From the NCBI GenBank assembly GCA_009910795.1, contig VMEE01000016.1, positions 74,278-138,277 of the forward strand: DNA of 64,000 nucleotides, given 5' to 3'. Shown here one piece after another: positions 21,496 through 54,188 of this stretch; the stretch's first letter is position 1, and the number at the start of each line of letters is the position of its first letter. The position numbers were made by a program, and so were the translations under genes. The stretch is from Dehalobacter sp. CP. GTDB taxonomy: Bacteria > Bacillota_B > Desulfitobacteriia > Desulfitobacteriales > Syntrophobotulaceae. Under the pieces are notes generated by a model. It searched no databases. It was not told the origin of the DNA and saw only the letters and a list, made by a program, of their open reading frames with translations.

Positions 21496-21596
21496 GTCTG
21501 CGTAATCAGTAACGTTTTCGGCTATTGCGCCCTCCTTGGCGCAAAAAGCCGCGCTCCGCATCGTGCTACGCTGACACTGTTACTGATTACGCAGAC
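21496..21596 (-). repeat. Structured intergenic repeat, copy A
   Basis: A 101-nt element bounded by a perfect 18-bp inverted repeat (GTCTGCGTAATCAGTAAC at 21496-21513 and its complement at 21579-21596). Read on the minus strand it contains an inner hairpin TTGCGCC-AAGGAG-GGCGCAA flanked by CGGCT/AGCCG. The terminal arms differ in sequence from those of other copies yet remain fully paired. It lies 43 nt upstream of the hyuA start in the sense orientation. Confidence 0.9.
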
Positions 21597-21636
21597 AGTA
21601 TTATTTTAAATTATGTATTACTTTGGGTTTTGGCTG

Positions 21637-22242
21637 TTATACGACGTTTTCCCGGTCTTTGTTTTGCACATTCAATGGATCAAGAATCAACTCTTTAATG
21701 TCCTTATCATAGTCTGCGCTAATACAATGTAAGATGTACAGGGCTATCAAGATTAAATAATTAACTCCAACATTAGTCGTAATAATTTCTGTCCAATTTA
21801 AATTACTATCTACATGTGCGCCCCCGTCTTTTTCGGCAAATGTTTTAATAAGGTCTTTAACTGAATAATAATTCTTTGAGTCATACTGAATAATAATTTG
21901 ATTTACCCATTCACCTAACGCTACTGGCTTAGAGTTATCATCGAATAGATCATATACAGTTCTTCTTTCTCCATTTAAAAACTTATAGGGGTCAGTAATA
22001 TTCCCAAATGAAAGTAGAAGTGGTTCATCAACAACCTTGGGCAAAAGGGAATTGTCTTTACCGCGGTTAGAATCACATATCAGAATTCTTAGTTGCGTAG
22101 CAATTACGTTAATAAATGAATCTATTTCCAATCTGTGAACAAGAAAAAGGCTAACTTCTAGCATCTCTACGCACTGTGTGAACTTCTCAAAATGATTAAT
22201 ATCACTTCTTAGATATTGTTCCTTCTCTTTCTTTGGCTCCAT
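21637..22242 (-). CDS. Hypothetical AT-rich orphan protein flanked by inverted repeat copies
   Basis: A 201-aa protein I do not recognise. It is polar and mainly helical in appearance, with a hydrophobic segment near residues 158-172 (VGVNYLILIALYIL) and the run FAEKDGGAHVD near residue 138. GGGGAG precedes the ATG. Base use is clearly more AT-rich than mutS and hyuA on either side, which suggests acquisition. Copies A and B of the structured repeat flank it in opposite orientations, so the gene may have entered the mutS-hyuA junction together with them. Confidence 0.7.
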   Translation of the reverse strand: MEPKKEKEQYLRSDINHFEKFTQCVEMLEVSLFLVHRLEIDSFINVIATQLRILICDSNRGKDNSLLPKVVDEPLLLSFGNITDPYKFLNGERRTVYDLFDDNSKPVALGEWVNQIIIQYDSKNYYSVKDLIKTFAEKDGGAHVDSNLNWTEIITTNVGVNYLILIALYILHCISADYDKDIKELILDPLNVQNKDRENVV

Positions 22243-22474
22243 GACTACTCCCCATTCATATCAAATCTATTTAGACTTTCTTTCAAGGGAAATGTCGTAT
22301 GACAACATTTATCTGCAATACATTGATCCGAGTCTAAGTATATTCGTATATGTATAATGATAGATTATTTCTAGGCTGTTAGGCATTTCTTAAAGCTACA
22401 AATATCATTCATTAAAGGGAATCTACATTAAGACACATTCTGGCAAGAAAACTACTCTAACATGCTTGTAATTA

Positions 22475-22579
22475 GTCTGGGTGCCACAGTTCCGCGACAA
22501 GCGGAGCATGGAGTGCGCAGCGCGGCTTTTTGCGCCAGGGAGGGCGCAATAGCCGAAAGCGGTATTGTGGCACCCAGAC
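22475..22579 (+). repeat. Structured intergenic repeat, copy B
   Basis: A 105-nt element in the 448-nt gap between mutS and the orphan gene; nothing else is recognisable in the gap. Arms GTCTGGGTGCCACAGTTCCGC and GCGGTATTGTGGCACCCAGAC pair over 21 positions with one G-U and one mismatch. The inner hairpin is TTGCGCC-AGGGAG-GGCGCAA (22530-22549). It is inverted relative to copy A. The short GCTTGT/ACAGGC stem just outside the arms extends the pairing. Confidence 0.9.
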
Positions 22580-22690
22580 AGGCCACAAACAGGGTTATTC
22601 GTTGTCTAAAAAGGCCACAACATAATTACCGATTTATAGAAAGCTGAAAAGCCTCATCAAGATATATCAATCATCATTGCAGAAATGCCG

Positions 22691-25243
22691 TTAGATAATC
22701 TTCGTCGCCTTAACGCGGCTGACGAGATCATAGAGGTAATCCATCGCCTGACGCGGTGCAAGATTATCCAGATCCAGCTCTTCAAGCTCCTTAAATATCG
22801 GATGCGTGCTTTGGGTATCAAACAGTGACGGCTGCAGCATATTGGCATCGACAGCTTTCACAATCTTGCGCTGGGTCGGGGAATTTTCGAGTTCACCGAG
22901 AATGAGGGCTGCCCTTTTTAAGAGATGGGGCGGAAGGCCGGCAATCTTCGCCACATGAAGGCCATAGCTCCGGTCAGCCTTGCCGGGAAGTATTTTATGC
23001 AGGAAAACAACGTCGTCTCCCTGTTCCCTAACAGCCACATGCAGATTAAAAACTTCAGGATAACGTTCTTCCAATTCGGTTAGCTCATGGTAATGTGTCG
23101 CAAATAATGTTTTGGCTTTAATGTCGGTGTTTTCAACCAGATACTCGGCAATCGCCCAGGCCAGACTGAGACCGTCAAACGTGGCTGTTCCCCTGCCGAC
23201 TTCGTCTAGAATAATCAGACTGTCCGCCGTGGCATTTTTGAGGATATGGGCAACTTCGTTCATTTCGACCATAAATGTGCTTTGCCCTGCGGCCAGGTTA
23301 TCGGCGGCTCCTACCCGGGTAAAGATACAGTCGGCAATCGAAATGGCAGCCTTCTGGGCAGGCACGAAGCTGCCGACCTGGGCCATTAAAACAATCAGGG
23401 CTACCTGGCGCATATAGGTCGATTTCCCAGCCATATTGGGGCCGGTAATCAGAGCAAGGTGCTTATTACGGGTAAGATAAGTATCATTCGGAACAAACGT
23501 ATCACAGATTCTTTCCACAACCGGATGCCGTCCCTCAACAATATGAATGATCCCATCGGAACGTATTTCCGGTTTGACATAATTGTTCTGAATGGCGGTT
23601 CCAGCCAACGAGACAAAAACATCGATTTCAGCCAACGACTGGGCAGCATTAATGATCAGCAGCGAACAAGCCAGAACCTTGTCCCGAAGCACAGAAAACA
23701 GCTGATATTCGAGATCACTGAGTTTGTCCTGCGCAGTCAGGACGCGCTGCTCGTATTCCTTTAATTCCGGGGTGATGAATCGCTCGGCATTAACCAGCGT
23801 CTGTTTTCGCTGATAATCATTCGGAATCAAATGGGCATTCGCATTGGTGATTTCAATAAAGTACCCAAAGTTCTTATTAAAGCTGATCTTCAACGAACGG
23901 ATTTTGGTGCGTTCTCTTTCCTGATTTTCGAGGCGGGCAATCCATTCTTTGCCACCGGACGATATCGCCCGCAAACTGTCAATTTCTGCTGAATAGCCGT
24001 TCTGAATAATATTTCCGTCCTTCGGAGAGTACGGTGCTTCAGGATTTATGGCCGCAAGCAGTTCCTGCGCAAGGTCATCAAGCCCGGCCAGGGACGGCAG
24101 GTATTTAGCCAGCTTTTGAGAACCGTTGTCAGTGATGCAATCCCTGACCTTAGGCAGGCAGGATAACGTGCTGCCCAGCGCCAGCAGATCCCGGGGACTT
24201 GCTTTGCCAAGGGACAGTTTTCCAAGCAGCCTTTCCAGGTCATACACTGCTGTCAAAGCTTTTTGTATATCTTGGCGTAAAAAAGTATTCAGCGTTAACT
24301 CTTCGACGGAAGCCAACCGTTCATTAATGCTTTCAGGATCGCGTAAGGGTTGCTGCACCCAGTTTCTGAGCAGTCTGGCTCCAAAGGCCGTTTTGGTTAA
24401 ATTCAGGGTGGAAAATAAGGTCCCCTTCTCATCGCTGGTTCGCAGTGATTCGACAAGTTCAAGATTCCTTCTGGTCCATTTATCGAGAACCATTGCCGTA
24501 CTGCTTTGGCTCACCGAAATGCGCAGGATATGTTCCTGTCCCGAGTTGGGGATATTCTGACTGATATACTGCCAAAGTCCGGCGGCAGCTTTGCAGGCAA
24601 CCGGCATTTGCTGCAAAAGTTCTGCCTGCTTCTTAAATCTTTCACTAAGTTCAGCCGTCCTCAGGAACAAATTTTTTTCGATCGCTGTCAGATAATAATC
24701 CGTAAATAGTTTGGGCAGCATCACAATGTCCTTGGACAGGATAAGTTCGGAAGGTGCAATACGGTTTAATTCCGCCTGCAGTATCTGAATGGAAGGCGTC
24801 TCCATGATCCGGAAATCACCCGTTGTGATGTCGAGATAAGCGAGCGCCCACGTTTTCTCCTTATAGACACACGCCAGAAAGTTGTTCTTTGTTTCCGAGC
24901 TGATACTGTCCAGCGTACCCGGCGTCACAATCCGGACAATGTCTCTTTTGACAATTCCTTTACTGGCTTGAGGATCTTCCATTTGTTCACAAATGGCAAC
25001 TTTAAATCCGGCAGCGACCAATTTCAGAAGATAACCGTCCACGGCATGATGCGGAACTCCGCACATGGGTATTTTCTGGCCCTTGCCTGCGTCCCGCGCC
25101 GTTAGCACGATTTCCAGAACAGGAGCAGCTGTCTCGGCATCCTGGCCAAACATTTCATAAAAATCGCCAAGCCTGAAAAACAGGATCGTATCCGGTACCC
25201 TGTTCTTTATCTCTTGATATTGCTGCAGCATGGGTGTATTCAT
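22691..25243 (-). CDS. mutS: DNA mismatch repair protein MutS
   Basis: An 850-aa mismatch sensor. The mismatch-binding Phe-x-Glu is in RLGDFYEMFG near the N-terminus, Walker A is GPNMAGKSTYM, and Walker B/signature is ILDEVGRGTATFDG. CTTLFATHYHEL-type H-motif residues occur in LFATHYHEL. It overlaps miaB by 4 nt. Normally mutL follows mutS closely; here about 4.2 kb with the orphan gene, hyuA and the deacetylase intervene. Confidence 0.98.
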   Translation of the reverse strand: MNTPMLQQYQEIKNRVPDTILFFRLGDFYEMFGQDAETAAPVLEIVLTARDAGKGQKIPMCGVPHHAVDGYLLKLVAAGFKVAICEQMEDPQASKGIVKRDIVRIVTPGTLDSISSETKNNFLACVYKEKTWALAYLDITTGDFRIMETPSIQILQAELNRIAPSELILSKDIVMLPKLFTDYYLTAIEKNLFLRTAELSERFKKQAELLQQMPVACKAAAGLWQYISQNIPNSGQEHILRISVSQSSTAMVLDKWTRRNLELVESLRTSDEKGTLFSTLNLTKTAFGARLLRNWVQQPLRDPESINERLASVEELTLNTFLRQDIQKALTAVYDLERLLGKLSLGKASPRDLLALGSTLSCLPKVRDCITDNGSQKLAKYLPSLAGLDDLAQELLAAINPEAPYSPKDGNIIQNGYSAEIDSLRAISSGGKEWIARLENQERERTKIRSLKISFNKNFGYFIEITNANAHLIPNDYQRKQTLVNAERFITPELKEYEQRVLTAQDKLSDLEYQLFSVLRDKVLACSLLIINAAQSLAEIDVFVSLAGTAIQNNYVKPEIRSDGIIHIVEGRHPVVERICDTFVPNDTYLTRNKHLALITGPNMAGKSTYMRQVALIVLMAQVGSFVPAQKAAISIADCIFTRVGAADNLAAGQSTFMVEMNEVAHILKNATADSLIILDEVGRGTATFDGLSLAWAIAEYLVENTDIKAKTLFATHYHELTELEERYPEVFNLHVAVREQGDDVVFLHKILPGKADRSYGLHVAKIAGLPPHLLKRAALILGELENSPTQRKIVKAVDANMLQPSLFDTQSTHPIFKELEELDLDNLAPRQAMDYLYDLVSRVKATKII

Positions 25244-26574
25244 GGCTCACTTAGCTCCCCAAAAAGCGTCCAGGAATTTGCAGATCTGATTGTAACCGAA
25301 ACAAGCGAACCGACCAAGTCCTCCCTGCCTTCAAATACAACAATCTCATTTCCTCTGGTACGGCCTGTTAAATATTTAGGATCCGACTTGCTGGGTCCTT
25401 CCACCAAAATTTCATAGCGATTGCCAATCAGTTCCTGGCGCCAGCTCAGACTCCGGGTATTTTGAAGTACCATCAGTCTCTGCAGACGATTTTTCTTGAT
25501 ATCGAGCGGAACCTGATCCGGAAGCGTTGCCCCCGCAGTCCCGGACCGTTTGGAAAACATGAAGGTAAAGGCCTGATTGAAAGGCACTGTATTGACAAGA
25601 TCAAGCGTCTGCTCGAAATCTTCTTCCGTTTCTCCGGGAAACCCAACAATAATATCGGTTGTCAATCGGGCCTCGGGTACAATTTCCAGAATACGCGCAA
25701 TTCTTTCCAGGTAGTATTCCCTGGTATACCCTCTGTTCATCGCCGTCAGCACTTGATTGCTTCCGGCCTGGAATGGCAGATGGAAGTGTTCACAGATATG
25801 CTCGCCGCGGGCTACCGTCTCGATCAGCTTATCACTGAAATCTTTCGGATGAGAGGTCATAAACCGGATTCGGTAAAGCCCTTCAATTTGATCGATTTCA
25901 GTCAGCAAATCGGAAAAATCATACGCAAAACCGTCTTTTTTTCCGTAGGAATTGACATTCTGGCCAAGCAAGGTCACATCACGGCAGCCATTTTCGACAA
26001 GTGTCCTGATTTCGTCCAGAATAACGTCCATCGGACGGCTGCGTTCTCTTCCCCTGACATAAGGAACAATGCAATAGGCACAATAATTGTCACAGCCATA
26101 CATGATGTTGACATTGGTCCGAAGCTTTCCTTTTTCAGCCAAAGGAACAACCTCAGTGGTTTCACAGGCCGCCCCGGAAACAAGCGAGGCTTTTCCGCCC
26201 TGATCCGCTGTTTTCAGCAAACCTTCAAATTGATGATGATCAAAGGTCCCTGTCCAGATATCGACATGAGGGGCTTTTTTTTGGAGTTTTTCCAGCAGGC
26301 CGGGCTGTTGAATCATGCATCCGGCAACCGCAATCTTGAGCTGCGGTTTTTTTTCTTTCAGTTTTTTCAATTGACCGATTTTGCCAATAATTTTATTTTC
26401 GGCGCTTTCTCTGACACAGCAGGTATTAATGATAACCAAATCGGCCTGTTCAGGGTTCTCGGTGCGCGCGTACCCGTTTTTTTCCGAAATGGCCGTCAAG
26501 GTCTCGGCATCCCGCTCGGACATTTGACAGCCATACGAAATCGTACACACTTTCTTATTCATTTTGTTCGACAT
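25240..26574 (-). CDS. miaB: tRNA methylthiotransferase MiaB
   Basis: A 444-aa radical SAM enzyme that makes ms2i6A37 from the MiaA product. The N-terminal cluster Cys are in ISYGCQMSE, NTCCVRES and AGCMIQQ, and the SAM cluster is CDNYCAYC. A TRAM domain ends the protein (YEILVEGPSK to VTIRSANSWTLFGEL). The start at 26574 gives a family-like N-terminus and leaves 19 nt after the degV stop; the longer frame would run back into degV. Confidence 0.96.
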   Translation of the reverse strand: MSNKMNKKVCTISYGCQMSERDAETLTAISEKNGYARTENPEQADLVIINTCCVRESAENKIIGKIGQLKKLKEKKPQLKIAVAGCMIQQPGLLEKLQKKAPHVDIWTGTFDHHQFEGLLKTADQGGKASLVSGAACETTEVVPLAEKGKLRTNVNIMYGCDNYCAYCIVPYVRGRERSRPMDVILDEIRTLVENGCRDVTLLGQNVNSYGKKDGFAYDFSDLLTEIDQIEGLYRIRFMTSHPKDFSDKLIETVARGEHICEHFHLPFQAGSNQVLTAMNRGYTREYYLERIARILEIVPEARLTTDIIVGFPGETEEDFEQTLDLVNTVPFNQAFTFMFSKRSGTAGATLPDQVPLDIKKNRLQRLMVLQNTRSLSWRQELIGNRYEILVEGPSKSDPKYLTGRTRGNEIVVFEGREDLVGSLVSVTIRSANSWTLFGELSEP

Positions 26575-26593
26575 GTATTCAATCAATCCTCTA

Positions 26594-27451
26594 TTACATC
26601 TTCGGAACGGACTGGTAATACAGCGCCAGCGTTCCCGGTCCGACATGACTGCCTACAACACAACCAATATCACTAATAATCACGTCTTTGACAGGCAGTG
26701 CATTTTTAATTTCTTCAGCCAGGGCTTCGGCTTCTTCCAGACACGCCGAATGAGAAATCCCGATTACTTGCTTTTCTGCTTCGACGATTTCATTTTTCAT
26801 GATTTCGATGAGCTTGCGGATCGCAGCTTTTCTGGATCTGACTTTGTTGAATACATCAATTTTCCCTTCCGTATTCATGTGCAAAATTGGTTTAACATCT
26901 AGAAGTCCGGCAACAAATCCGGCTGTTTTGCTTAATCTTCCGCCTTTCACAAGGTATTCCAGCGTATCAATGGTAAAAATGTACCGCATTTTATTTCTAA
27001 TCTCCATGATTTGCGGTTCAATCTCCTGCCAGATATCGGTATGCAACAGTATTTCTGACGTAAGTACGGCCTGCAGCCCGAATCCCAAAGATGCACCAAG
27101 ACTGTCGATGATATGTATTTTTTCCGGAGCGCTGCACATTTCCCGCACCATCACTGCCGTTTGGCAAGTTGAACTTAAGCCGGAAGACAGGTGTATGGCA
27201 ATAACTTCTTTACCTTCAGCCAATACTTTTTCGTAGGCATCCTTTAAAAGATTCAGATTAGGCTGCGAAGTCTTCGGGAGTTCTTTATAATCTTTGAAAT
27301 TAGCATAAAACTTGTCCGGAAAAATATCGATCCCTTCTGCATAGGTAACCCCATCAATATTTACCGGCATCGGGACAACAATAATCCCAAGTTTCTCAGC
27401 TAAATCTCTTGGAATATCTGAAGCGCTGTCTACTACGATCTGAAATGGCAT
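26594..27451 (-). CDS. DegV family fatty-acid-binding protein
   Basis: A 285-aa DegV protein starting MPFQIVVDSASDIP. SSGLSSTCQTA is the ligand loop and IGCVVGSHVGPGTLAL the C-terminal signature. GGATGGAG precedes the ATG at 27451; the longer frame has no support. It leads a same-strand run into miaB and mutS, though a functional link is not obvious. It probably binds a fatty acid for a FakA-type kinase encoded elsewhere. Confidence 0.92.
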   Translation of the reverse strand: MPFQIVVDSASDIPRDLAEKLGIIVVPMPVNIDGVTYAEGIDIFPDKFYANFKDYKELPKTSQPNLNLLKDAYEKVLAEGKEVIAIHLSSGLSSTCQTAVMVREMCSAPEKIHIIDSLGASLGFGLQAVLTSEILLHTDIWQEIEPQIMEIRNKMRYIFTIDTLEYLVKGGRLSKTAGFVAGLLDVKPILHMNTEGKIDVFNKVRSRKAAIRKLIEIMKNEIVEAEKQVIGISHSACLEEAEALAEEIKNALPVKDVIISDIGCVVGSHVGPGTLALYYQSVPKM

Positions 27452-27584
27452 GCTATCACTCCATCCAAAAAATGATACTATAAATAATCCTACCAATTAC
27501 ATCCTGTTTGTCAAGTTTTTTAGAAAACTTAGGTTGCACTTATATCTATCGGAAAATGTACAGCTTTTCAATAATTTAGAAACT

Positions 27585-27616
27585 TAAAAAAAATAGCGCT
27601 TGTCCAAGCGCTATTT
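27585..27616 (-). terminator. Terminator downstream of the M23/G5 peptidase gene
   Basis: AAATAGCGCTT (27591-27601) and AAGCGCTATTT (27606-27616) form an 11-bp stem with a GTCC loop. On the minus strand the stem is followed by a T-run (plus-strand A-run 27585-27593). It lies 10 nt beyond the peptidase stop. Confidence 0.92.
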
Positions 27617-33233: not shown

Positions 33234-33339
33234 GTCTGCGTGCCACAATTCCAGCGTCAAGCGGAGCATGGAGTGCGTAGCGCGGCCTTTTGTGTCAAGG
33301 AAGACACAACGGCCGAAAGCGGAATTGTGGCACGTAGAC
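33234..33339 (+). repeat. Structured intergenic repeat, copy C
   Basis: A 106-nt element between gap and pyk. Arms GTCTGCGTGCCACAATTCC and GGAATTGTGGCACGTAGAC pair over 19 positions with one G-U. The inner hairpin is TTGTGTC-AAGGAA-GACACAA (33290-33309) flanked by CGGCC/GGCCG. GTGTC/GACAC replaces GCGCC/GGCGC of copies A and B, a paired change. It is antisense to the glycolytic genes. Confidence 0.9.
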
Positions 33340-36664: not shown

Positions 36665-37669
36665 TTATGCAAGTAAGGCAAGCAACAGCGATATACCGGA
36701 TCGCATATCGTTTTTAGACGCAATTTCACCTGGCGTATGCAGATGCCGGACTGGAACAGCCAGGCCCCCGGTAGGGATCCCGCCTTTGGTCAGGTGAACC
36801 GGGCCGGAATCGGTGCCTCCGTTCGTAATGATTTCCCATTGATAGAGTATTTCGTGCTGTTCGGCGATTTCAGCCATCCAGTTTTTAATTTGGGGAGATA
36901 CGACGATTGATCTGTCCATCACTTTAATCGCGATACCTTTATTCAGAGAAGTCCGCGGCACCCCGTATTCCCTGGGCATATCAAAACTGAACGTCGTATC
37001 GATATTCAAAGCGAGATTCGGTTCCAGCGCGTAGGCGGCTGTTTTTGCTCCGCGCGCGCCCACTTCTTCCTGGGCAGTAAACACAAAGTACAAGTCATCT
37101 TGGCTGCTGACTCTTTTCAATACTTCCAAGGCAATAAAACAGCCTACCCGGTTATCCAGCGCTTTGGAGATTACACAGTCTTTGGTCTCCTGATAGGTTC
37201 CGGAGAATACGGCCATATCGCCTTCCCGAACCATCGTTCTGGCCTCTTGCTCACTGGTTACTCCAAGATCGAGGAACAGCCGTTCCGGTGAATTCTCATC
37301 CAGCTTCTTTTTCTCTTCACGGCTGACGACACCTACTGCCCCGTTGGCAAAAACGAAGCGCTGTGCGAGCAGAACATGATCTCGCAAACCGCCAACCGGT
37401 GCAAAGTACAGATAGCCCTGCTTATTGATATGGGTCACCATGATGCCGACTTCATCCATATGGCAGGCAATCATAATCTTCTTCCCAGGACCTTTTTTTC
37501 TGACAATCAGATTACCCAGCGTATCCGTATAAGCGGTATCAGCATCATTTTTTGTCTGGTCTAAAATCAGCGCCGCAACGTTGTGTTCTTGGCCCGAAGG
37601 ACCAAAAGTCTGGGTGAGCTGTTGAAGTAAGGTGAAATCTAAAGAATCTAAAGGTTTTGTATCTGTCAT
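36665..37669 (-). CDS. M42 family metallopeptidase (third of a tandem trio)
   Basis: A 334-aa glutamyl-aminopeptidase/cellulase M-like enzyme. Metal ligands are seen in ACHMDEVG (His-x-Asp), ALDNRVGC (Asp), TAQEEVGARG (catalytic Glu-Glu) and a C-terminal His in VRHLHTPGE. TET-type aminopeptidases of this family trim peptides in the cytosol. The ATG at 37669 has GGAGG upstream; the longer frame extends into repeat copy D and is rejected. Confidence 0.94.
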   Translation of the reverse strand: MTDTKPLDSLDFTLLQQLTQTFGPSGQEHNVAALILDQTKNDADTAYTDTLGNLIVRKKGPGKKIMIACHMDEVGIMVTHINKQGYLYFAPVGGLRDHVLLAQRFVFANGAVGVVSREEKKKLDENSPERLFLDLGVTSEQEARTMVREGDMAVFSGTYQETKDCVISKALDNRVGCFIALEVLKRVSSQDDLYFVFTAQEEVGARGAKTAAYALEPNLALNIDTTFSFDMPREYGVPRTSLNKGIAIKVMDRSIVVSPQIKNWMAEIAEQHEILYQWEIITNGGTDSGPVHLTKGGIPTGGLAVPVRHLHTPGEIASKNDMRSGISLLLALLA

Positions 37670-37722
37670 AAAGAGCCTCCTACTTCTTATCAGGGATTCC
37701 GTTAGACGTATTTTCTCGGGTA

Positions 37723-37828
37723 AGTCTGAGGTCCACAATACCGCTTTTCGGCTCTTGTGCCATCCTTGGCGCAAAGAGCCGCACTCCGCATTCAGCTTCG
37801 CTTTTCGCGGAACTGTAGCCCTCAGACT
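37723..37828 (-). repeat. Structured intergenic repeat, copy D
   Basis: A 106-nt element filling the gap between two M42 genes. On the minus strand arms AGTCTGAGGGCTACAGTTCCGC and GCGGTATTGTGGACCTCAGACT pair over 22 positions with two G-U wobbles and two mismatches. The inner hairpin GGCTCTTTGCGCC-AAGGAT-GGCACAAGAGCC has one C-A mismatch and a bulge. It is the most degenerate copy, and is in the sense orientation for the operon. Confidence 0.85.
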
Positions 37829-37831
37829 ATG

Positions 37832-38887
37832 TTAAGAAATATTAAGATTTAAGAAATAGTGAATGTCATTTAAAATGCATTGAAGAAGCCGCACGCAGTG
37901 CTGATAATCATTCTTTGAAATAATGGAGCTCATCGTATGGATATTCCGGCAGGGTACACTGAGTGTCATCGTGGGTATGCCGATACCGGCCTGATGGATG
38001 TTCCCTGCATCATTGGCCGCGGCAGCTCCTTGTCTGAACTGGAGCGGAATATTATTTTTTGCAGCTGCAGCCATCACTTTTTGGACGAGTCCAGGTTTAT
38101 AGACCGTTGCGGAATCCATCAGCGAACAGGCCGGACCGTTTCCTGGTGTGACAATCCAGTTTTCCCGTTCGGATTCAGTAAAATCAGCAGCGCGTGTCGC
38201 CTCAACAACCAGGGCCAGATCAGCCTGAAGATAATTGCTTACCACTTTCGATCCGCGCAGGCCAACTTCCTCCTGTACTGTGAATACAGCTGTCAAATCA
38301 CAGGGATAATCCTGTTCTAAGAGCTCCATGATCGCCGCACAGCCCACCCTGTCATCAAGGGCCTTTCCTTTGTACAGTCCTGAGCCAATCTCTTCAAATA
38401 CCGTTGGGAATGTGACGTAATCGCCCAGCTTCACAACGTTTTCTGCTTCTGCCTTGGAAGATGCCCCGATATCAATATAGAGATCCTCGATATCCGGGAT
38501 TTTTTTTCTTTCCTCCGTTTTCTGCAAATGAACGGCTTTCAAACCGATGACGCCCTGCAGACCGCTGTCGAATACGACGGTCTTGGCAATCAAAATCCCC
38601 GGTTCAATACCGCCGACGGTCTGAAATTTCAGATAGCCATCCGCAGTAATTTCCGTAACCATTAGGCCGATTTCATCCATATGGGCACAGACCAGGACTT
38701 TTGGCAGATTTTCACCGGATCCTTTGCCGACCCCTTTTCTCTCTATCAGTAGATTTCCGATCTGATCCGTCCTGCACGAATTCAAATTGTCTTGGAGTCG
38801 GTCTTTAAGATGCGCCAGAATAAAGTCCCTGACCGGTTTCTCATTTCCGGATACGCCGTTAAGCTCAGATAATTCTTTTAACAGCAT
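37832..38887 (-). CDS. M42 family metallopeptidase (second of a tandem trio)
   Basis: A 351-aa enzyme starting MLLKELSELNGVSGNE. Ligands and catalytic residues appear in CAHMDEIGLM, ALDDRVGCAA, TVQEEVGLRG and PCRNIHTMSS. GGAGGAAA lies just before the ATG at 38887; a long upstream frame overlapping the preceding gene is rejected. It begins 1 nt after the stop of the first M42 gene, so the two are translationally coupled and may form hetero-oligomers. Confidence 0.94.
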   Translation of the reverse strand: MLLKELSELNGVSGNEKPVRDFILAHLKDRLQDNLNSCRTDQIGNLLIERKGVGKGSGENLPKVLVCAHMDEIGLMVTEITADGYLKFQTVGGIEPGILIAKTVVFDSGLQGVIGLKAVHLQKTEERKKIPDIEDLYIDIGASSKAEAENVVKLGDYVTFPTVFEEIGSGLYKGKALDDRVGCAAIMELLEQDYPCDLTAVFTVQEEVGLRGSKVVSNYLQADLALVVEATRAADFTESERENWIVTPGNGPACSLMDSATVYKPGLVQKVMAAAAKNNIPLQFRQGAAAANDAGNIHQAGIGIPTMTLSVPCRNIHTMSSIISKNDYQHCVRLLQCILNDIHYFLNLNIS

Positions 38888-38888
38888 G

Positions 38889-39947
38889 TTAGATTTCCTC
38901 CAATTCTTCCGGCAACGACGCAATGAAATACGCCAGCAGCTTGCCGCATTCAACAATATCCTGCAGCGAGGCCGTCTCGACGGATGTATGCATATACCGG
39001 AGAGGTATGGACACCAACCCGGTCGGTATGCCATAACCGGTCAACTGAATCACTCTGGCATCGGTGCCTGTCGCCCCTGGAATCGCCTGCCGCTGACAGG
39101 CAATCCTGTTCTGCTGCGCACTGTCGGAGAGCCTGGTGTAGACCCAGGGATGAATATTCGGGCCGAGACTAATCACCGGTCCTTTCGCCAGTTCAGCGGA
39201 AACCTGACTTTTGGTATCCAGCGTTTGGGCATGCGTCACATCAACGGCAACTGCCAGCGACGGCAGAAGTCGCTCCGAGCTGGTAAGTCCTCCTCTTAAA
39301 CCCACTTCTTCCTGAACCGTAGCGACTGCTACCACATCATGCTGATGTTTCATACCCATCAGTTCGTTCAGGCATACCGCCAGTACGACCACTCCAGCTC
39401 TGTCGTCAAGTGCTTTGCCGGATATTCTGTCGTTGAGCAGACGCAGCGGGCACCTTTTGATGCTGGCGATATCTCCCGGTTTGACCATTTGAACTGCCGC
39501 TGCATCATTAAAACCGATATCGATCACCAGATCCTCTATATCGAGGGTCTGCCGCTTTTTGCTGTCCTTGTGGGAAGATCCCAGGCAAACTACGCCACGC
39601 AGATCTTCCTTTCCGTGTACCAGGATTTCCTGGTAAAGCAAGGTTCTCTGGTCAATTCCGCCGAGCGTGGCAAAGTGTAAAAATCCTCTTTCATCAATAT
39701 GGGTGATCATCAACCCGATCTCGTCGATATGCGCAGCAAGCATTACGGAATGTTTCCCGCTGTGCTCTCCTTTTTTAACCGCATAGAAGTTGCCGATAAA
39801 ATCAGAGAAAGTCTCTGCTGAGAGTGGCGCAAAAATATCCTGAAGTGTTGTTTTTAAGCCCTGTTCATATCCGGAAACACCTGTCATTTCCGTCAACGAA
39901 CAGGTAAGTTCCCGCGCAAGCTCGAAGGAATTCCTTAACACGTGCAT
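38889..39947 (-). CDS. M42 family metallopeptidase (first of a tandem trio)
   Basis: A 352-aa aminopeptidase. AAHIDEIGLM, ALDDRAGVVV, TVQEEVGLRGG and PLRYMHTSVE carry the dinuclear metal site and catalytic Glu. AAGGAAAGG precedes the ATG closely; a GTG at 39941 is an alternative start. The three adjacent paralogues diverged in substrate-loop regions, which would fit a division of labour among N-terminal residues. Confidence 0.94.
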   Translation of the reverse strand: MHVLRNSFELARELTCSLTEMTGVSGYEQGLKTTLQDIFAPLSAETFSDFIGNFYAVKKGEHSGKHSVMLAAHIDEIGLMITHIDERGFLHFATLGGIDQRTLLYQEILVHGKEDLRGVVCLGSSHKDSKKRQTLDIEDLVIDIGFNDAAAVQMVKPGDIASIKRCPLRLLNDRISGKALDDRAGVVVLAVCLNELMGMKHQHDVVAVATVQEEVGLRGGLTSSERLLPSLAVAVDVTHAQTLDTKSQVSAELAKGPVISLGPNIHPWVYTRLSDSAQQNRIACQRQAIPGATGTDARVIQLTGYGIPTGLVSIPLRYMHTSVETASLQDIVECGKLLAYFIASLPEELEEI

Positions 39948-48135: not shown

Positions 48136-48142
48136 GCTTTCT

Positions 48143-48547
48143 TTAGACTTTTAAAAACCACAAGAACCAGACTGCATGGTTTTGCTCATCGGCGGCTGCT
48201 CTTTTGAATTGTTCCCTGATAAAAGGATCCTGTGTCTTTTCAGCCACATTATGATAGAAATCAACCGTATGCTGCTCATCCTGAAAGGCAGACTTTAGAG
48301 CCGCCCTGTAAGCGGCAGGACATTCTTCAGTCATCTGAGGGTTTGGTTTTGTCCCTGTGATTTCAGTAAATATCTGCGAAAATATGTGATAATGCCGCAC
48401 CTCGTCCTGGCGGATCTCCAGGATTTGTTTTCTTATTTCCTGATTCGGCGCTTTTTCAGCCAGCTTGGCGTAACAGGCGATCGCGCTATACTCTCCGTTG
48501 ATAGCCCTGACCAAATCCTGAGTTAATGAGCTTGTGCCCGGAACCAT
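48143..48547 (-). CDS. Ferritin-like/rubrerythrin-type diiron protein
   Basis: A 134-aa four-helix protein. Metal ligands appear as Glu in NGEYSAIACY, Glu and His in QDEVRHYHIF, Glu in QDEQHTVDFY, and Glu and His in ADEQNHAVWF. Without a rubredoxin tail it may act in iron storage or peroxide removal. GGGGAGG precedes the ATG. It lies 112 nt downstream of the amidohydrolase-like gene. Confidence 0.87.
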   Translation of the reverse strand: MVPGTSSLTQDLVRAINGEYSAIACYAKLAEKAPNQEIRKQILEIRQDEVRHYHIFSQIFTEITGTKPNPQMTEECPAAYRAALKSAFQDEQHTVDFYHNVAEKTQDPFIREQFKRAAADEQNHAVWFLWFLKV

Positions 48548-48659
48548 ATAAGATACCTCCCCAACATTAATTGTTGGTTTATTCTATCTCATTAATTCAC
48601 GGATCGTGCCTGGCTATTAATTTCCTGATCAGAAAATTTTAAGTACGCATTGGCCGCGT

Positions 48660-49358
48660 TCAGGCCAGTCGTTTTACACTTTCCGCCAGGGCACCTATTA
48701 GACGGTGAAACCCCAAGGCATTCTGAGCTGGAACACGGTAATGTTTATTGATCTCTATCTGTACTGCCGGAATTCCCAGTTCGTGTGAGACAAAATGGGA
48801 GACGGTATTCGCGCCGGAAGCGGCAAAAAAGTCCGTCGAAACTCTGGCTAAGCCGAAATCCCGGAAGTTTTGTTCCAGGATTTCCAAAATATTCGCCTTG
48901 CCAAGCAGGTTCTTCTTTTGATTTGTGCCCAGGTCCACATCGAAATCTCTCTCCCGGGCAGCCCCATGAATGTCCAGAACAACCTTTACTTTCTTTTCAC
49001 GGCAGAAGCTGGCGATCCGGTCTTTATACATGCAGGGATCGTCGGCATTCGGGTCTCCGCCGTAGAGCTTTGTCGCTGCTATGGCATGGCATCCCGTCAA
49101 TTTGTTTAACAGGAAGACAACCGAGCCGGTGAACTGATCCGACATCAGGATCTTTTTCTGCCTGTAATGCCTGACCGCATGCGGCGCGGACACCAGCACC
49201 GGAAGCTCCCCGCGCGTTAACAGGAACGGCTCTTCCTGCCGTGGATTGACGCGTTTGTCTGTTTTATAAAAATATACTTTTTCTATATTGACGGCTTCTT
49301 CATTTAAGCGGGCCCGGTTATATTCATTTAAGACCTTTTCAGGCATATTCTCCATCAT
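48660..49358 (-). CDS. N-formylglutamate amidohydrolase-like protein
   Basis: A 232-aa protein. APHAVRH, DIHGAARER and QIEINKHYR are the metal and substrate motifs of the N-formylglutamate deformylase/amidohydrolase superfamily. The substrate is not established and no histidine-degradation genes are nearby. It is 38 nt downstream of the beta-propeller gene, on the same strand, suggesting the last gene of the ANTAR-led operon. Confidence 0.82.
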   Translation of the reverse strand: MMENMPEKVLNEYNRARLNEEAVNIEKVYFYKTDKRVNPRQEEPFLLTRGELPVLVSAPHAVRHYRQKKILMSDQFTGSVVFLLNKLTGCHAIAATKLYGGDPNADDPCMYKDRIASFCREKKVKVVLDIHGAARERDFDVDLGTNQKKNLLGKANILEILEQNFRDFGLARVSTDFFAASGANTVSHFVSHELGIPAVQIEINKHYRVPAQNALGFHRLIGALAESVKRLA

Positions 49359-49396
49359 TGGACTAGTACCTCGTTAACTTTAAAAATCGGCATGGA

Positions 49397-50467
49397 CTAT
49401 ACTTCCCTCCAGTAATAAACAGACTTCTCGTTTCCCGGCAAAAGCTCCAGGTACAAATCACCCGTTGGAGCTAAGATGATGACCGCATTGGATTCTGTAG
49501 CGGACACATCCGGTAATCTCAGCCATTGATGTTTACCGTTAGCGAAAATGACGTCCAGGCGTCCCTTGCTTTTGATTATAACCTGATTCGTATTGCTGAT
49601 TTTTGTTTCTGTCTCCGCATACGGAATCTCCCCTTGCCAGACCACGGCTTCCGTCATCGCCGGGCCGGATGGCTGTACTTGATAAACGGTCACCTCCTGA
49701 AGGATGTTCCCGCTGACTTTACCAACATAGATTTTGTCGTCACGACAGCCAAGCAGCGTATCTTCAGGGTCAACAGAAATAGGGTTCTTACTGCCGGCCT
49801 GATAAACATCAATCGCCTTGTCCGTCCCCATTCTGCTCTCTGCATAGATGCTGCCGAATTTATTGGAAACCGCAATGTTTAGGATTTCTTCTCCCTGCTG
49901 ATTCACCCTGTTCAGGGTCTTCATGATATCCATTGTAATCAGCTGGCGGGTCTGATTGTCATCCTTAAACAAGATAAATAGCTTGTTCGTATAGGTCGAC
50001 ATTTCAATTTGCAGCACCTGATTGACCGCGAGGCTTAATTCCCTGTCCAGCATCGGTTCAAAGCTGTTCAATTCAGAAGAGCCGGTGCTGAAATCCACAG
50101 AATATAAGCTTGTTACGGCGTTCTTGTTCTGCTCCCTGATCAGATAGACCATACCGTTCCGGTCCGGAAGCCAAGCGAAGCCGGCGATCTTTGCTGCGTC
50201 CTCTTCCGGGCACTTTGAGAAGATCTTCGTGTTCGTCGTCAAATCAATGACTTCAAGATAACGTCCCGCTTGATAGGCCAATAACTTTTTATTGTAAGAC
50301 AACGCAAAGCCGTACGCCTGACTAAGATCCGTTTTCAGAACATACGCCTGATTAATATGCAAAGAAGGGTTTAACAGCTGTTCTGCTTGCCAGTTCAGCA
50401 GCGCATAAACAGCAAGCTGTAATACCAGGGAAGGTAATAACAGCCAGATGATCCATCGTCTTTTCAA
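49397..50467 (-). CDS. Membrane-anchored protein, probable beta-propeller
   Basis: A 356-aa protein with one N-terminal membrane helix (about residues 6-22) and an extracytoplasmic region in which YLEVIDLTTNTKIF and LYSVDFSTG look like propeller blades. I do not recognise a named family. The TTG start lies behind GAGGGGTGGGG and overlaps the glycosidase-like gene stop by 4 nt. By context it may assist that enzyme at the cell surface. Confidence 0.7.
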   Translation of the reverse strand: MKRRWIIWLLLPSLVLQLAVYALLNWQAEQLLNPSLHINQAYVLKTDLSQAYGFALSYNKKLLAYQAGRYLEVIDLTTNTKIFSKCPEEDAAKIAGFAWLPDRNGMVYLIREQNKNAVTSLYSVDFSTGSSELNSFEPMLDRELSLAVNQVLQIEMSTYTNKLFILFKDDNQTRQLITMDIMKTLNRVNQQGEEILNIAVSNKFGSIYAESRMGTDKAIDVYQAGSKNPISVDPEDTLLGCRDDKIYVGKVSGNILQEVTVYQVQPSGPAMTEAVVWQGEIPYAETETKISNTNQVIIKSKGRLDVIFANGKHQWLRLPDVSATESNAVIILAPTGDLYLELLPGNEKSVYYWREV

Positions 50468-51477
50468 TTTTGCCCCACCCCTCTAGGTTTCTTTTCCGGC
50501 ATCACCACAAAAGCTGTAGGCATATAGCGTTCGCCGTAGATGTTCCAGAGTTTATTGACAATCTGACCTTGATAGAACAATTCCGTTGAAGAACCGCCGT
50601 CAAGATTCGCTGCATTTTCGGCTCCATATTCAATAAATATATTCATCAGATCCCGCAGCGTGGCTCCCATACTCCAGTCAGGCTGTCTGCCGTCTATCAC
50701 AACGAAAATAACCGTACCGTCGGCTTTTTGCCCGATTCCCGTCCTGGGAGCGAGTCCCCAGCCGCCGTCGCCTTTAATCTGTGGTTCTCCGTTCAGAATA
50801 AGGTTTGGCTCGAAGCTGACCGCATGCCGAATCCCAAGATCCCCGATAATCCCTGAGGAGAGTTCCTTGGCAGAGACTGTCCGGAGTATCAGTTTTCCTT
50901 CTTTGTTAAAACCGATCAGATTCGCACCTTTAGCCGCGTTCAGATTTTCATGAATGAGCTGCCCGTCCCTGACGGTGATCCCATCCGGATAAGCACCGTT
51001 CCCCTGCGAATTCGGATCATAAAAGCCGCCGGCATTCATACCGGCTACTGCGCCCTCCGCAGTGACCAGTTCCGATAAGCGCTGTCCGGCTATGCCAATC
51101 TCTTTGGTAACGGCAACTTCGATCTGAAGAGGGTCACGTACGAGCATGACGATGCCTTTAAAATATTTGCCTTCAATATTTTCTATCCTAATCCCGTTTT
51201 CTTCATCGTCAATCTTATGGTCAATATGCTGAATGACAGGTTCCACGGTAACTGACGTATTTCCGTATTTCTGGGTAATTTCAGCAATTTTTTCATCCGA
51301 TAAAAAAAAATCCGCTACCTGAGGATGGCGGGACGTCAGAATCGTTCCGACCGTAACATACGTCAACGAATGAAAAGGACCATAAAAGACAATGAAAGGC
51401 CCTAAGAGGATGAACAACAGCATATTCCCAACGATGAACCGGATCAGAAATTGTTTTTTTGTTATCAAGGTCTCCAC
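50464..51477 (-). CDS. Phosphodiester glycosidase family (NAGPA/DUF2233) membrane protein
   Basis: A 337-aa protein with an N-terminal membrane anchor (about residues 11-33) and a C-terminal phosphodiester glycosidase domain. GMNAGGFYD, PRTGIGQKADGTVIFVVIDGR and NLDGGSSTELFY are hallmark segments. Bacterial members release N-acetylglucosamine linked through phosphodiesters to wall polymers. GTG at 51477 overlaps the ANTAR gene by 13 nt, so the two are coupled. Confidence 0.9.
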   Translation of the reverse strand: METLITKKQFLIRFIVGNMLLFILLGPFIVFYGPFHSLTYVTVGTILTSRHPQVADFFLSDEKIAEITQKYGNTSVTVEPVIQHIDHKIDDEENGIRIENIEGKYFKGIVMLVRDPLQIEVAVTKEIGIAGQRLSELVTAEGAVAGMNAGGFYDPNSQGNGAYPDGITVRDGQLIHENLNAAKGANLIGFNKEGKLILRTVSAKELSSGIIGDLGIRHAVSFEPNLILNGEPQIKGDGGWGLAPRTGIGQKADGTVIFVVIDGRQPDWSMGATLRDLMNIFIEYGAENAANLDGGSSTELFYQGQIVNKLWNIYGERYMPTAFVVMPEKKPRGVGQN

Positions 51478-52031
51478 GTTCCTTTTACGACATCGGCAGC
51501 GATTGCCCGAATTGTTTTTCTTGAGGTCATCGCTTCTGTTCGAATCGAGGCATAGGCTGTTTCTTCATCCATCCCGCCTGCAATCAGGATTAAAATCGCC
51601 TGATACACCAGTTTTCTTGTTTTAAGCTCATCATTTAATTTATTCATTTCTTTGCGCTGTTCTATTTCTCTGTTAAACCGGTGTTCAGCCTGGGCAATCC
51701 CGGAGACGACATCTATCGCTCTGAGCGGAGCCGTCATGATATGGTGGACATTGGTTTTCAACGCAAAATCCAGGTTCACATAATCCTTTTGATCAAGCAC
51801 GAAAATAACCGGACAAATATTGGCATGAACGAGATTCTGAACGAGATCAAGCGGGGAAATCCCCTGGATATCCCCTCCGCAGATGATCAGGTCAGGCTCA
51901 ACCCGCTGCGCCATGCGCAGAGCCTCTATACCACTGTCAGTCCTCGCGATCGCCTGATAATTGGCCAAAGGCAGGACGGCATTCAATTCATTGATTTGTT
52001 TTTCCTGGCTAATCAGTATGGCTCTTTTCAT
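51465..52031 (-). CDS. ANTAR-domain RNA-binding response regulator
   Basis: A 188-aa protein. Residues about 1-120 form a receiver-like domain whose acidic phosphorylation segment is altered (DLIICGGDIQG). A short coiled coil (REIEQRKEMNKLNDELK) leads to a C-terminal ANTAR domain (LVYQAILILIAGGMDEETAYASIRTEAM). Known ANTAR proteins such as EutV bind paired RNA hexaloop hairpins with A at position 1 and G at position 4, and cause antitermination. It heads an overlapping operon with wall-polymer genes. AAGGGA precedes the ATG. Confidence 0.92.
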   Translation of the reverse strand: MKRAILISQEKQINELNAVLPLANYQAIARTDSGIEALRMAQRVEPDLIICGGDIQGISPLDLVQNLVHANICPVIFVLDQKDYVNLDFALKTNVHHIMTAPLRAIDVVSGIAQAEHRFNREIEQRKEMNKLNDELKTRKLVYQAILILIAGGMDEETAYASIRTEAMTSRKTIRAIAADVVKGTWRP

Positions 52032-52091
52032 TTAGTCCCTTTACTCCATCAAGAAATCGATCAACAGTTCTATTATACTATTTGGCAAAGC

Positions 52092-52147
52092 AAAAAAATA
52101 AGTGCTTTCGTACCAAGAATTTTTTGATTAAAAGGTACCAGACACTT
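52092..52147 (-). terminator. Terminator/attenuator 61 nt before the ANTAR gene
   Basis: On the minus strand AAGTG and GTACC pair with GGTAC and CACTT across a small internal loop. Seven U residues follow. It sits between the CARDB-like gene and the ANTAR gene; a TATAAT-like box lies just after it on the minus strand (52072-52077). Confidence 0.7.
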
Positions 52148-52227
52148 AATGATACTATATTTATAAGGTTCTAAGCAATGATTTTTCCTTACACTCCGTT
52201 TTACTACGGTTACATGGTTCGATAAAG

Positions 52228-52782
52228 TCAGGACTTTATCGACGAATCAACATTGAAGACCACCCTGGCTTCCGTATTTTGAGACGCACCGCCTTCGAGA
52301 TTGGCTTTGATTGCCAGTACCATCTCATGCTGGCCTGCCGTCGCACTCTTGCCGGTTGCATCACCTAAGGCTTCAATATTTTCAAAGGCAATTTTAGCTG
52401 TTGCTCCGGGTTCCAGTGTCGGTATAATCCCTTCCTTGCTGACCTGCTTATTTTTATCTTCCAGGGACTGAATGGTCAGGACAACCGGCACATTGGTCAT
52501 CGTGTTTTCGGTCATGTTTTGGATGATCGCAGAGACTTTAAAATGACTTGCCGGTAGGATCTGGACTCCCTTAAACATTTCCTCTCCGTAAGTGATGTCC
52601 CGGATGACAATTTGAGGATCAAAATCAATACTTACAATTTTAATCTCAGGTTCTGTTTGTTCCGGAGTGGAAACGATCTCCGTATTTCCGATCAAGCTGC
52701 CCATAAGGCCAATAAGAGCAACCAATATGACCAGTCCTCCGACAAACAAATACTTTCTCTTAATAATAAAGAATTTAGCCAA
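52228..52782 (-). CDS. Membrane-anchored protein, probable Ig-like/CARDB fold
   Basis: A 184-aa protein with one N-terminal helix (FVGGLVILVALIGLMG) and an exposed domain whose strands (KVSAIIQNMTENTMTNVPVV, LEPGATAKIAFENI) resemble CARDB-like beta sandwiches. Function unknown. I chose a TTG at 52782 because GGAGGTG lies 8 nt upstream; an ATG at 52806 would precede that site. A perfect dyad (52219-52242) overlaps its stop codon. Confidence 0.7.
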   Translation of the reverse strand: MAKFFIIKRKYLFVGGLVILVALIGLMGSLIGNTEIVSTPEQTEPEIKIVSIDFDPQIVIRDITYGEEMFKGVQILPASHFKVSAIIQNMTENTMTNVPVVLTIQSLEDKNKQVSKEGIIPTLEPGATAKIAFENIEALGDATGKSATAGQHEMVLAIKANLEGGASQNTEARVVFNVDSSIKS

Positions 52783-52817
52783 TTGTCTGCACCTCCATAA
52801 AACCATTTCTAATAGAA

Positions 52818-52852
52818 AACCTATGCATGCTTTTCATGGACATGCATAGGTT
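52818..52852 (-). terminator. Terminator downstream of the DnaI-like gene
   Basis: AACCTATGCATG (52818-52829) and CATGCATAGGTT (52841-52852) pair perfectly around an 11-nt loop. On the minus strand TTTTCTATT follows. Confidence 0.75.
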
Positions 52853-52940
52853 TATACCCAAAAAATCCTTATGATTTGAGGAAATTCGCCTTAAGCAGAC
52901 AGCTTAGGAAAATATCTTAGCGTTTTTTCTAATTGGACGC

Positions 52941-53852
52941 TTATTTTTTATCCTTTTTTAATCCTTCCCGTTTTAAATAATTCTGCATCCGGATGTCCTG
53001 CGGTGCAGACAAGCGGAAAATCCTGCACATCTGAAGAAGCCGGGAGCAGGTTCGTTCTCCCAGATAATGATCGATCTCATCAAAATCAAGATTGGTCGTA
53101 ATGACAGTCGGCAGCTGCTCGTTCATCCGGTAATTCAAGATGGAGTAGATCCGGTTGCGGGACCATTCGGTATAATTATGCGCACCCAGGTCATCGAGAA
53201 TCAAAATCGGTACGGTTCTGGCAATATCCAGCAAGTCGTATTCCGTATTTTCACTTTTATTACTGAATGTAGCGCGCAGTTCATCCAAAAGGTCCGGGAC
53301 AATCAAAAAGAGCAGCTTGTGATTATTTTCCAGAATTTCATTCGCGATGGAAGCTGCCAGAAACGTTTTGCCACTTCCGACGGAGCCCGTGAAGAGCAGC
53401 CCGACTTCATGGGGATTTGTCCGGACATTTTTGACAAACTCCCTGGCGGCTTTCAGTGCTTTTTGGGCATTCAGGTAATCTTCCTGATCCTGCTGGGTGT
53501 TCCGATAGTATTCGAGGCTGAATTTTTCAAAACGGCAGTTCATTAGTTCCCTGGACAGACGTGCATATTTAAAGCTGTTTACAATCCTCTTTTTCTCCAT
53601 ACACGAACAGGGTACCGCTGTATCTCCATTCAGGACGATTCCCCTGTCTCCGCAGAGCGGGCAGACAGCACCGGCTTCAATATTTGTTTCGTGCTGAACA
53701 GTCGGCTGAATCTTTATCTCCGATTCATTCCGATTTGTTTTATCCAAATCCGTTGCAATCCGATCTTCCATGTTCGTGTTTCCCTGATTCGGCAGCACTC
53801 TTCCAATGATACGATCTGTTCTTTCCAGATGAGATCCCTCCTCTGACAACAA
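52941..53852 (-). CDS. DnaI/DnaC-type helicase-loader ATPase
   Basis: A protein of up to 303 aa. A Zn-binding segment (CPLCGDRG then CSCMEKKR, about residues 64-85) is typical of DnaI-like loaders. An AAA domain follows: Walker A GSVGSGKTF, Walker B ILILDDLGAHN, sensor ITTNLD. It should place the replicative helicase with the DnaD-like partner encoded upstream. The start is uncertain: TTG 53852 precedes a GAGGAGGG site, a CTG at 53828 follows it at ideal spacing, and the first ATG is at 53771. Confidence 0.88.
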   Translation of the reverse strand: MLSEEGSHLERTDRIIGRVLPNQGNTNMEDRIATDLDKTNRNESEIKIQPTVQHETNIEAGAVCPLCGDRGIVLNGDTAVPCSCMEKKRIVNSFKYARLSRELMNCRFEKFSLEYYRNTQQDQEDYLNAQKALKAAREFVKNVRTNPHEVGLLFTGSVGSGKTFLAASIANEILENNHKLLFLIVPDLLDELRATFSNKSENTEYDLLDIARTVPILILDDLGAHNYTEWSRNRIYSILNYRMNEQLPTVITTNLDFDEIDHYLGERTCSRLLQMCRIFRLSAPQDIRMQNYLKREGLKKDKK

Positions 53853-54031
53853 TTTCGTTACCCTTCAATGATGTCTATCTACCTATATTTCAAATACCAT
53901 TTTAACATGCGAGAAAATGTTCTTAAAATAACTCCACAAATAATGAGATACATTCCGACGATCAGACCTGCTTGTCTAATCCGATAATCAGTCTGGGGAT
54001 CGCAGCCAAGCCCTAACATGCCTGTTTATTA

Positions 54032-54188
54032 GTCTGCGTGCCACAGTTCCAGCGTCAAGCGGAGCATGGAGTGCGTAGCGCGGCCTTTTGACGGCCACGG
54101 ATGGCCTAATGTCGCGATGCCATGGATGGCAAGGAGCGACGCGTCACGGAGGACGCAACGGCCGAAAGCGGAATTGTGGCACGCAGAC
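54032..54188 (+). repeat. Structured intergenic repeat, copy E, with three hexaloop hairpins
   Basis: A 157-nt element in the 408-nt gap between the DnaI- and DnaD-like genes; the rest of the gap shows no gene. Arms GTCTGCGTGCCACAGTTCC and GGAATTGTGGCACGCAGAC pair over 19 positions with one G-U. Inside CGGCC/GGCCG are three tandem hairpins with loops ACGGAT (54097-54102), ATGGAT (54122-54127) and ACGGAG (54146-54151). The second stem also has an AAGGAG segment on one side of an internal loop. A possible remnant of another end lies at 53971-54000. Confidence 0.92.

Follow-up and report, generated by a model that had tools for sequence, protein, structure and literature searches.

A TwoAYGGAY-like folded repeat dispersed in Dehalobacter genomes, with loops in the form of predicted CsrA targets

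The decoys CsrB, CsrC, RsmX, RsmY and RsmZ of Gammaproteobacteria present repeated hairpins with GGA loops as binding sites for CsrA or RsmA; they are encoded by single genes that have several sites and their own promoters. Described CsrA antagonists comprise RNAs in Gammaproteobacteria and the protein FliW in Bacillus subtilis (PMC7652899). A high-affinity target of CsrA and RsmE is the hexaloop ANGGAX atop a stem, and omission of N is among the changes that weaken the binding 10- to 1000-fold (PMC4005645). A class of predicted CsrA-binding RNAs from Clostridia, TwoAYGGAY (Rfam RF01731), had not yet been validated as of 2014; its CsrA binding was predicted from motif matches, and its stem contains tandem GA pairs (PMC4333381). 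Here we analysed a stretch of 64,000 nucleotides from Dehalobacter sp. CP (assembly GCA_009910795.1, contig VMEE01000016.1, positions 74,278 to 138,277 of the forward strand; hereafter the window, with position 1 at its first letter), which contains five copies of a folded repeat. The + strand of this repeat is a three-way junction, in which a stem of about 20 bp and of almost any sequence holds two GGA-loop hairpins, or four in long copies. On balance, we favour its interpretation as a TwoAYGGAY-like multi-copy element, a predicted decoy whose loops likely bind CsrA. In comparison with the decoys of Gammaproteobacteria, it is represented by dozens of dispersed elements with two to four sites each and with no promoter signal above that of shuffled sequences. 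No description of this repeat was found in the available sections of PMC4333381, PMC2864571, PMC3910700, PMC3528712, PMC4005645, PMC7652899, PMC6529632, PMC2817692 and PMC4751268.

The five copies, A to E, had been noticed in a sequence-only reading of the window, and all of them were re-found in place and on the expected strand by cmsearch (90-121 bits, E-values from 5e-17 to 7e-24). Copy A (21496..21596, - strand; 93.9 bits) has the outer stem GTCTGCGTAATCAGTAAC and the inner loop AAGGAG, and forms a (-,+) pair with copy B (22475..22579, + strand; 120.1 bits), which has the outer stem GTCTGGGTGCCACAGTTCC and a C-G-closed inner loop AGGGAG at 22537-22542. Copy C (33234..33339, + strand; 121.4 bits) has the outer stem GTCTGCGTGCCACAATTCC and the inner loop AAGGAA at 33297-33302, copy D (37723..37828, - strand; 90.4 bits) has the inner loop AAGGAT and one C.A mismatch in the inner stem, and copy E (54032..54188, + strand; 92.7 bits) is of the long form, with a 51-nt module at 54090..54140 (+) composed of the hairpins GGCC-ACGGAT-GGCC and GCC-ATGGAT-GGC. 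The covariance model used, R1, was built from 30 copies, namely A-D and 26 of the 30 loci fetched from the genome G001, four half-matches of long copies being left out; since A-D contributed to the model, copy E is the sole independent hit among the five. G001 is the nearest genome compared (67% of sampled words in common with the window) and gave 46 BLAST matches to copy C. When 41 relatives were surveyed with R1 under stricter filters, with at most 96 of the best candidates scored per genome, matches were obtained in 11 of them: 66, 64, 72, 52 and 77 in five Dehalobacter genomes (G001-G005), 43 and 47 in two genomes from other genera of the family and 1-6 in four more; 14 further members of that family had no match, nor did any of the 16 genomes from two sister families. 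This survey, a check proposed with the sequence-only reading, thus yielded further copies, and together with the BLAST matches it excludes a chance explanation of the repeat. Separate R1 searches gave 73 copies in G003 and 59 in G004. The G003 set derives from 77 matches, from which one 31.5-bit extra (L074:2665) and three reverse-strand echoes were removed; a far set of 27 copies from the genomes G016, G019 and G014 derives from 28 matches minus one reverse-strand echo.

In the RNAalifold consensus, the outer stem is accompanied by two hairpins: hairpin 1, which is short (GC-GNA-GCN-loop-NGC-GNA-GC), and the inner one, which is longer and in which the alignment pairs 60-75, 61-74 and 63-72 covary among the 30 copies. 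As had been proposed, the stems change in pairs: in this alignment, 23 of 37 pairs are changed on both sides, 96.8% of 1108 pair cells are standard (85.7% in shuffles), and none of 500 shuffles reaches any of five measures, although related sequences can exceed such shuffles without structure and the pair cells are not independent. With the 3' partner shifted by 1-3 columns, pairing falls to 27-42%. The RNA folds of A-D are 6.3 to 8.7 standard deviations more stable than those of dinucleotide shuffles, and in the G003 and far sets the same core is surrounded by unrelated stems, such as GTCTGCGTGCCACA, GTCTCCGTAATGGAT, AACGTCATGTAGTCT, GGCTATGCAATATAT, AGCTACACCTCAGC and others. The inner arms GCGCC/GGCGC of A and B and GTGTC/GACAC of C, as well as the single C.A of D, are as first read; the outer arms, described as fully paired, are not all Watson-Crick, since copy C has a G.U near the stem foot (GTCTGC/GTAGAC). 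Strains can differ in the version of the element that they carry at a given site (at site C, the stem shared by the window, G001 and G003 is replaced by a different one in G002 and G005), so a large share of the covariation may go back to a small number of old changes that were copied repeatedly.

If no strand-specific selection acted, mutation would be expected to yield about equal numbers of G.U and A.C mismatches. When the outer stems were paired without favouring G.U, 79 G.U, 15 A.C and 76 other mismatches were counted in the 73 G003 copies, and 25 G.U, 5 A.C and 17 other ones in the far set. The G.U at position 15, found in 34 copies, is probably inherited; without this position and its one U.G, the two sets pooled still contain 69 G.U against 20 A.C. 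In the five window stems, where the wobbles of B, C, D and E had been reported as G-U on one strand only, there are 5 G.U and 0 A.C, beside 3 other mismatches. Within G003, the G.U:A.C ratio is 26:4 in copies lying sense to their neighbours, 36:4 in antisense copies and, more weakly, 17:7 in convergent gaps; as the bias is alike in sense and antisense copies, it is the + strand of the element that folds, and not the mRNA strand of the neighbours. The best copies score about 120 bits in cmsearch on the + strand versus 25-31 on the other. In a small sample of in-situ changes between orthologues of more than 90% identity, there were 7 G.U versus 4 A.C comparisons, the latter all tracing to one G003 base, and at least 6 other mismatches. 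Strand-specific selection on a single-stranded fold is thus well supported by the covariation, the 79:15 ratio and the strand difference in cmsearch. DNA too tolerates G.T better than A.C, so the mismatch bias fits RNA and single-stranded DNA alike; of the earlier proposal of selection on RNA structure, the part that stands is the selection on a strand-specific fold.

The inner loop reads C-A(N)GGAX-G in all 30 aligned copies, with N in 28 of them and without it in 2, and both N and X vary. In G003, CA(N)GGANG is present in the inner part of 66 of 73 copies (62 with N) and anywhere in 67, while CANGGANG, at any position in these copies, was counted 102 times on the + strand against two occurrences on the opposite one. 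All 27 copies of the far set have the inner motif, 14 with N. An ANGGAX hexaloop seated directly on a stem is accordingly found in 28/30, 62/73 and 14/27 copies of the three sets. Two more GGA-loop hairpins of CsrA-target form are contributed to long copies by the 51-nt module, whose presence at a given site varies from strain to strain: at site C it was found in G001 only, at site D in G003 only, and at site E in the window, G002 and G003, being missing from the same-site copies of G001 and G005. A choice of the inner hairpin by stem length alone was discarded as uninformative, because such stems slip one pair into the loop or settle on the outer portion of the hairpin; it gave a lower GGA count (52/71 in G003), and the aligned and motif counts were relied on instead.

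The six G003 copies without the motif comprise two with one-base changes, three with inverted or rearranged centres (L068, L081 and L090) and a truncated one. In L081:2744, L068:2501 and L090:2501, the inner hairpin is largely the reverse complement (e.g. GCCATCCATGGC), and in L114:2308 of G019 the 51-nt module largely reads as its own reverse complement, as if a palindromic stretch had been flipped in place. In three copies of G016 (L098:8684, L105:1990 and L105:2699), hairpin 1 is replaced by a GGA-less palindrome, CGCGTTACGCATGCGTAACGCG in L105 and one base different in L098, and the inner CACGGATG loop is retained.

At gathering scores, Rfam gave no matches to the copies in the window; the best match of A and B was TwoAYGGAY (clan CL00106) with 24.1 and 23.6 bits and E-values of 0.56 and 0.73, the cut-off being 43 bits. 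Two sets of copies from relatives likewise had no Rfam match at gathering scores, to RF01731 or otherwise: 28 copies, from 20 of the 44 loci of G003, and the 27 copies of the far set. Conversely, on ten TwoAYGGAY loci R1 gave one match at E 0.067, one at E > 1 and nothing on the other eight. Both families have an outer stem, a junction, two hairpins with (A)NGGA loops and several to many copies per genome. They differ in length (106 positions here, 168 in TwoAYGGAY) and, in our reading, in the place of a GNA/GNA-type internal loop, which lies in hairpin 1 here and in the outer stem of TwoAYGGAY. The architecture of an outer stem with two AYGGAY-type hairpins is present in the repeat, its loops being A(N)GGAX and only some of them strictly AYGGAY. 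As the family stays below the Rfam threshold, we place it as a variant of the TwoAYGGAY kind and not as a member. Among 20 TwoAYGGAY sequences, 14 contain CANGGANG on the + strand and none on the other; the remaining six have CAGGA loops. In 299 genomes of the phylum, with the best 9 candidates per genome scored, RF01731 had matches in 41, over the cut-off in 28, and 8 or 9 matches in 11. The csrA gene was found in 40 of the 41 genomes with a match versus 180 of the 258 without (Fisher p 2e-5, uncorrected for kinship, the two lists being matched by eye), and the sole RF01731-bearing genome without it, G203, is 94% complete. G001 itself has a separate TwoAYGGAY element on contig C106 (L130:807-962, - strand; 45.4 bits, above the cut-off), outside its listed R1 matches. 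In G066, G150, G262 and G271 (L132-L136, L139-L148), TwoAYGGAY copies at different places of one genome are near-identical, as if recently spread; Rfam nevertheless types the class as cis-regulatory.

The csrA gene was found in all five Dehalobacter genomes and in 10 of the 11 element-bearing genomes, the exception being G019; in Dehalobacter it adjoins fliW; the CsrA protein of G003 matches the CsrA equivalog model. Of the eight Flagellin_N genes in G001-G003, five, which encode filament flagellins, have a GC-A[T/A]GGAT-GC hairpin at -38/-39 with a loop like that of the element (CGC-A[T/A]GGAT-GCG, in one gene CTGC-AAGGAT-GCGG). The same five leaders carry CATGGAGG at -15/-16, in the Shine-Dalgarno place, and the minimum-energy fold displays the hairpin in four of them; the other three genes, which are weaker Flagellin_N matches (L155, L156 and L157), have no such hairpin. 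These leaders resemble the two-site CsrA layout of the B. subtilis hag leader (PMC7652899), so that the loop of the element has the form to be expected of a CsrA target native to these genomes. A mechanism may be proposed: RNA copies of the element, made by read-through or otherwise, would bind CsrA, a global regulator, via the GGA loops and would serve as dispersed decoys in competition with CsrA targets such as the flagellin leader, the outer stem would act as a sequence-free clamp against nucleases, and the copies would have spread as a mobile repeat and been kept alike by exchange between them.

All 73 G003 copies are intergenic (at most 40 nt of overlap allowed, genes from our own caller, loci chosen for holding copies), with 57 in same-direction gaps and 16 in convergent ones. 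Of the gaps of at least 150 bp in the fetched G003 loci, none of the 27 divergent ones contains a copy, as against 45 of the 97 same-direction and 13 of the 18 convergent ones. The distance from the end of a sense copy to the following gene start is 36-219 nt. For 22 of the 28 G001 copies that were tested, G003 has a copy at the same site; identity is below 90% in seven of these pairs, the lowest value being 77%. At site X, G003 and G002 carry a copy, G005 carries one that has lost its core, and the window (at 26592) and G001 have none; this presence/absence difference, the one that was read to the base, amounts to 192 bp and shows no target-site duplication. Copy A is broken in G003. Replacement and loss of copies are therefore plain, and new insertion is not among the changes seen.

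Several of the observations weigh against a CsrA-binding decoy. A read-through decoy should be biased in orientation, but sense and antisense copies are even (27 and 30), and the G.U bias is as strong in the latter. When the 120 nt preceding each of the 73 copies were scanned, promoter scores equalled those of shuffles, and the TATAAT-like hexamer seen in 16 copies, with its end 2 nt from the element, has no matching -35 signal; an own promoter was therefore rejected as unsupported, as was an intrinsic terminator, for which a scan round A and B found none. With regard to the loops, of 87 copies in which the pattern of hairpin 1 matched (100 tried), only 70 have GGA in that hairpin, two otherwise intact-looking G003 copies have lost the inner motif through a single base, the + strand of the three inverted inner hairpins has no GGA there, and in G019 the inner loop lacks N, the form reported as the weaker binder, in 12 of 15 copies read. 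G019, with 47-48 copies, also yielded no csrA or FliW, although this genome is 84% complete and its flagellar contig would end before csrA if its gene order is as in G014; conversely, csrA is present in 37 of the 41 relatives, so that it is near-universal and does not discriminate among them. The likeness to TwoAYGGAY is likewise uneven: no RF01731 match was found in the region of copy E up to E 5, in the copies of L031, L035, L038 and L040 up to E 3, or among the best 9 candidates each of G002 (64 copies) and G005 (77 copies).

In the main competing explanation, which we regard as rather unlikely, the repeat is a mobile DNA element of the non-autonomous type, and a transposase or recombinase recognises the hairpins formed by its single-stranded DNA, the loops being protein sites on DNA with no link to CsrA, similarly to repetitive extragenic palindromes (REPs) and REPINs. 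Such an element would account for 52-77 dispersed copies per genome, for their avoidance of genes and divergent gaps and for a strand asymmetry independent of gene direction; G003 neighbours less than 700 bp apart are (-,+) pairs in 15 of 15 cases, 21-325 bp apart, the flanks are conserved (CYNARATYA upstream, and YNRCCCNAR), and near-identical TwoAYGGAY copies lie at several places in G066 and G262. The pair rule breaks elsewhere, though, with (+,-) in two of five close pairs among 54 listed G004 copies, (+,+) in G002 and (-,-) in G016. Furthermore, each stem family has ends of its own, which does not fit a transposase that reads the ends, and a classical miniature inverted-repeat transposable element with fixed terminal repeats was rejected for the same reason. 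The many sites filled in both G001 and G003 indicate that present movement is low. No Y1 transposase (PF01797) match was found in G001, G003 and G005 despite their 66-77 copies, and no copies lie in 11 regions round long-form Y1 genes of G004, G013, G014, G016 and G019 (frames of 249-295 aa, taken as being of the REP-associated tyrosine transposase (RAYT) type); of the shorter or partial Y1 genes, which occur in G002, G004, G014 and G016, one of the two in G002 was covered (L055) and has no copy beside it. With REPs, or the bacterial interspersed mosaic elements (BIMEs) made with RAYT, the repeat has in common many intergenic palindromes, many pairs of which are inverted; REPs are short palindromes, while the present element is about 100-160 nt long and does not occur next to any of the long-form Y1 genes examined. 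The definition of REP and RAYT includes a GT(A/G)G head before the palindrome (PMC2817692). A REP with RAYT was rejected, as the upstream consensus has no such head and none of the Y1 genes covered is flanked by two inverted copies.

The position of 43 of the 73 copies downstream of a co-oriented gene, the absence from divergent gaps and the very stable folds would also suit a BIME-like element of 3' untranslated regions or intercistronic mRNA, protecting or processing the transcript, with incidental GGA loops. We consider this improbable, since copies in same-direction gaps are about as often sense as antisense with equal strand asymmetry, and a stabiliser has no need for a CA(N)GGAXG loop that hardly varies except at N and X. 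Less probable still, to the point of being hard to credit, is a neutral palindromic repeat, in which paired changes arise by template switching and exchange between copies and not by selection on the fold. The different versions at one site, the lost core of site X, the broken copy A, the inverted inner hairpins of G003 and the slight in-situ excess of G.U over A.C would all be in keeping with it, but it predicts neither the family-wide mismatch asymmetry nor loops constant around variable N and X, nor unrelated stems round one conserved core across genera.

We put forward a wider reading tentatively, as a possibility we rather doubt: mobile or once-mobile folded repeats, namely this family, TwoAYGGAY and their kin, may have made the genomes of many csrA-bearing Bacillota a distributed CsrA sponge. 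If so, dozens of two- and four-site decoys, variable between strains in number and module content, would either act alongside FliW as an antagonist made of RNA and open to tuning, or represent a selfish repeat that rides on CsrA. The family ties the idea of CsrA-binding RNA to a concrete set, with more than 60 copies in the type strain, a matching hairpin in flagellin leaders and a site-doubling module. It also bears on the spread and persistence of repeats with a conserved RNA-like fold in bacteria, and the CsrA question is directly testable.

As for the surroundings of the copies in the window, copy A precedes a hydantoinase-like gene (19783-21453, - strand), with 42 nt between it and the called start. 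Between A and B there is an orphan open reading frame (ORF) of 201 aa (21637-22242, - strand) with no match in Pfam, NCBIfam or PADLOC; we rejected it as cargo of the pair, as it has no domain match and is not found between the corresponding copies in G003. The A-B interval differs in G003, G005 and G002, and in the last of these a deletion seems to have joined A to B. Copy C has a pyruvate kinase gene on one side and a glyceraldehyde-3-phosphate dehydrogenase gene on the other. Just upstream of copy E, the stretch AATCAGTCTGGGGATCGCAGCCAAGCCCTAAC at 53986-54017, which reads as a degenerate second stem foot and 3' flank, resembles the remnant of a further copy. Copy D is located between two M42 peptidase genes, sense to both; these are the first two of three adjacent ORFs at 36665-39947 (-), the Pfam scan having covered these two, and a 76-nt repeat common to all three suggests tandem duplication.

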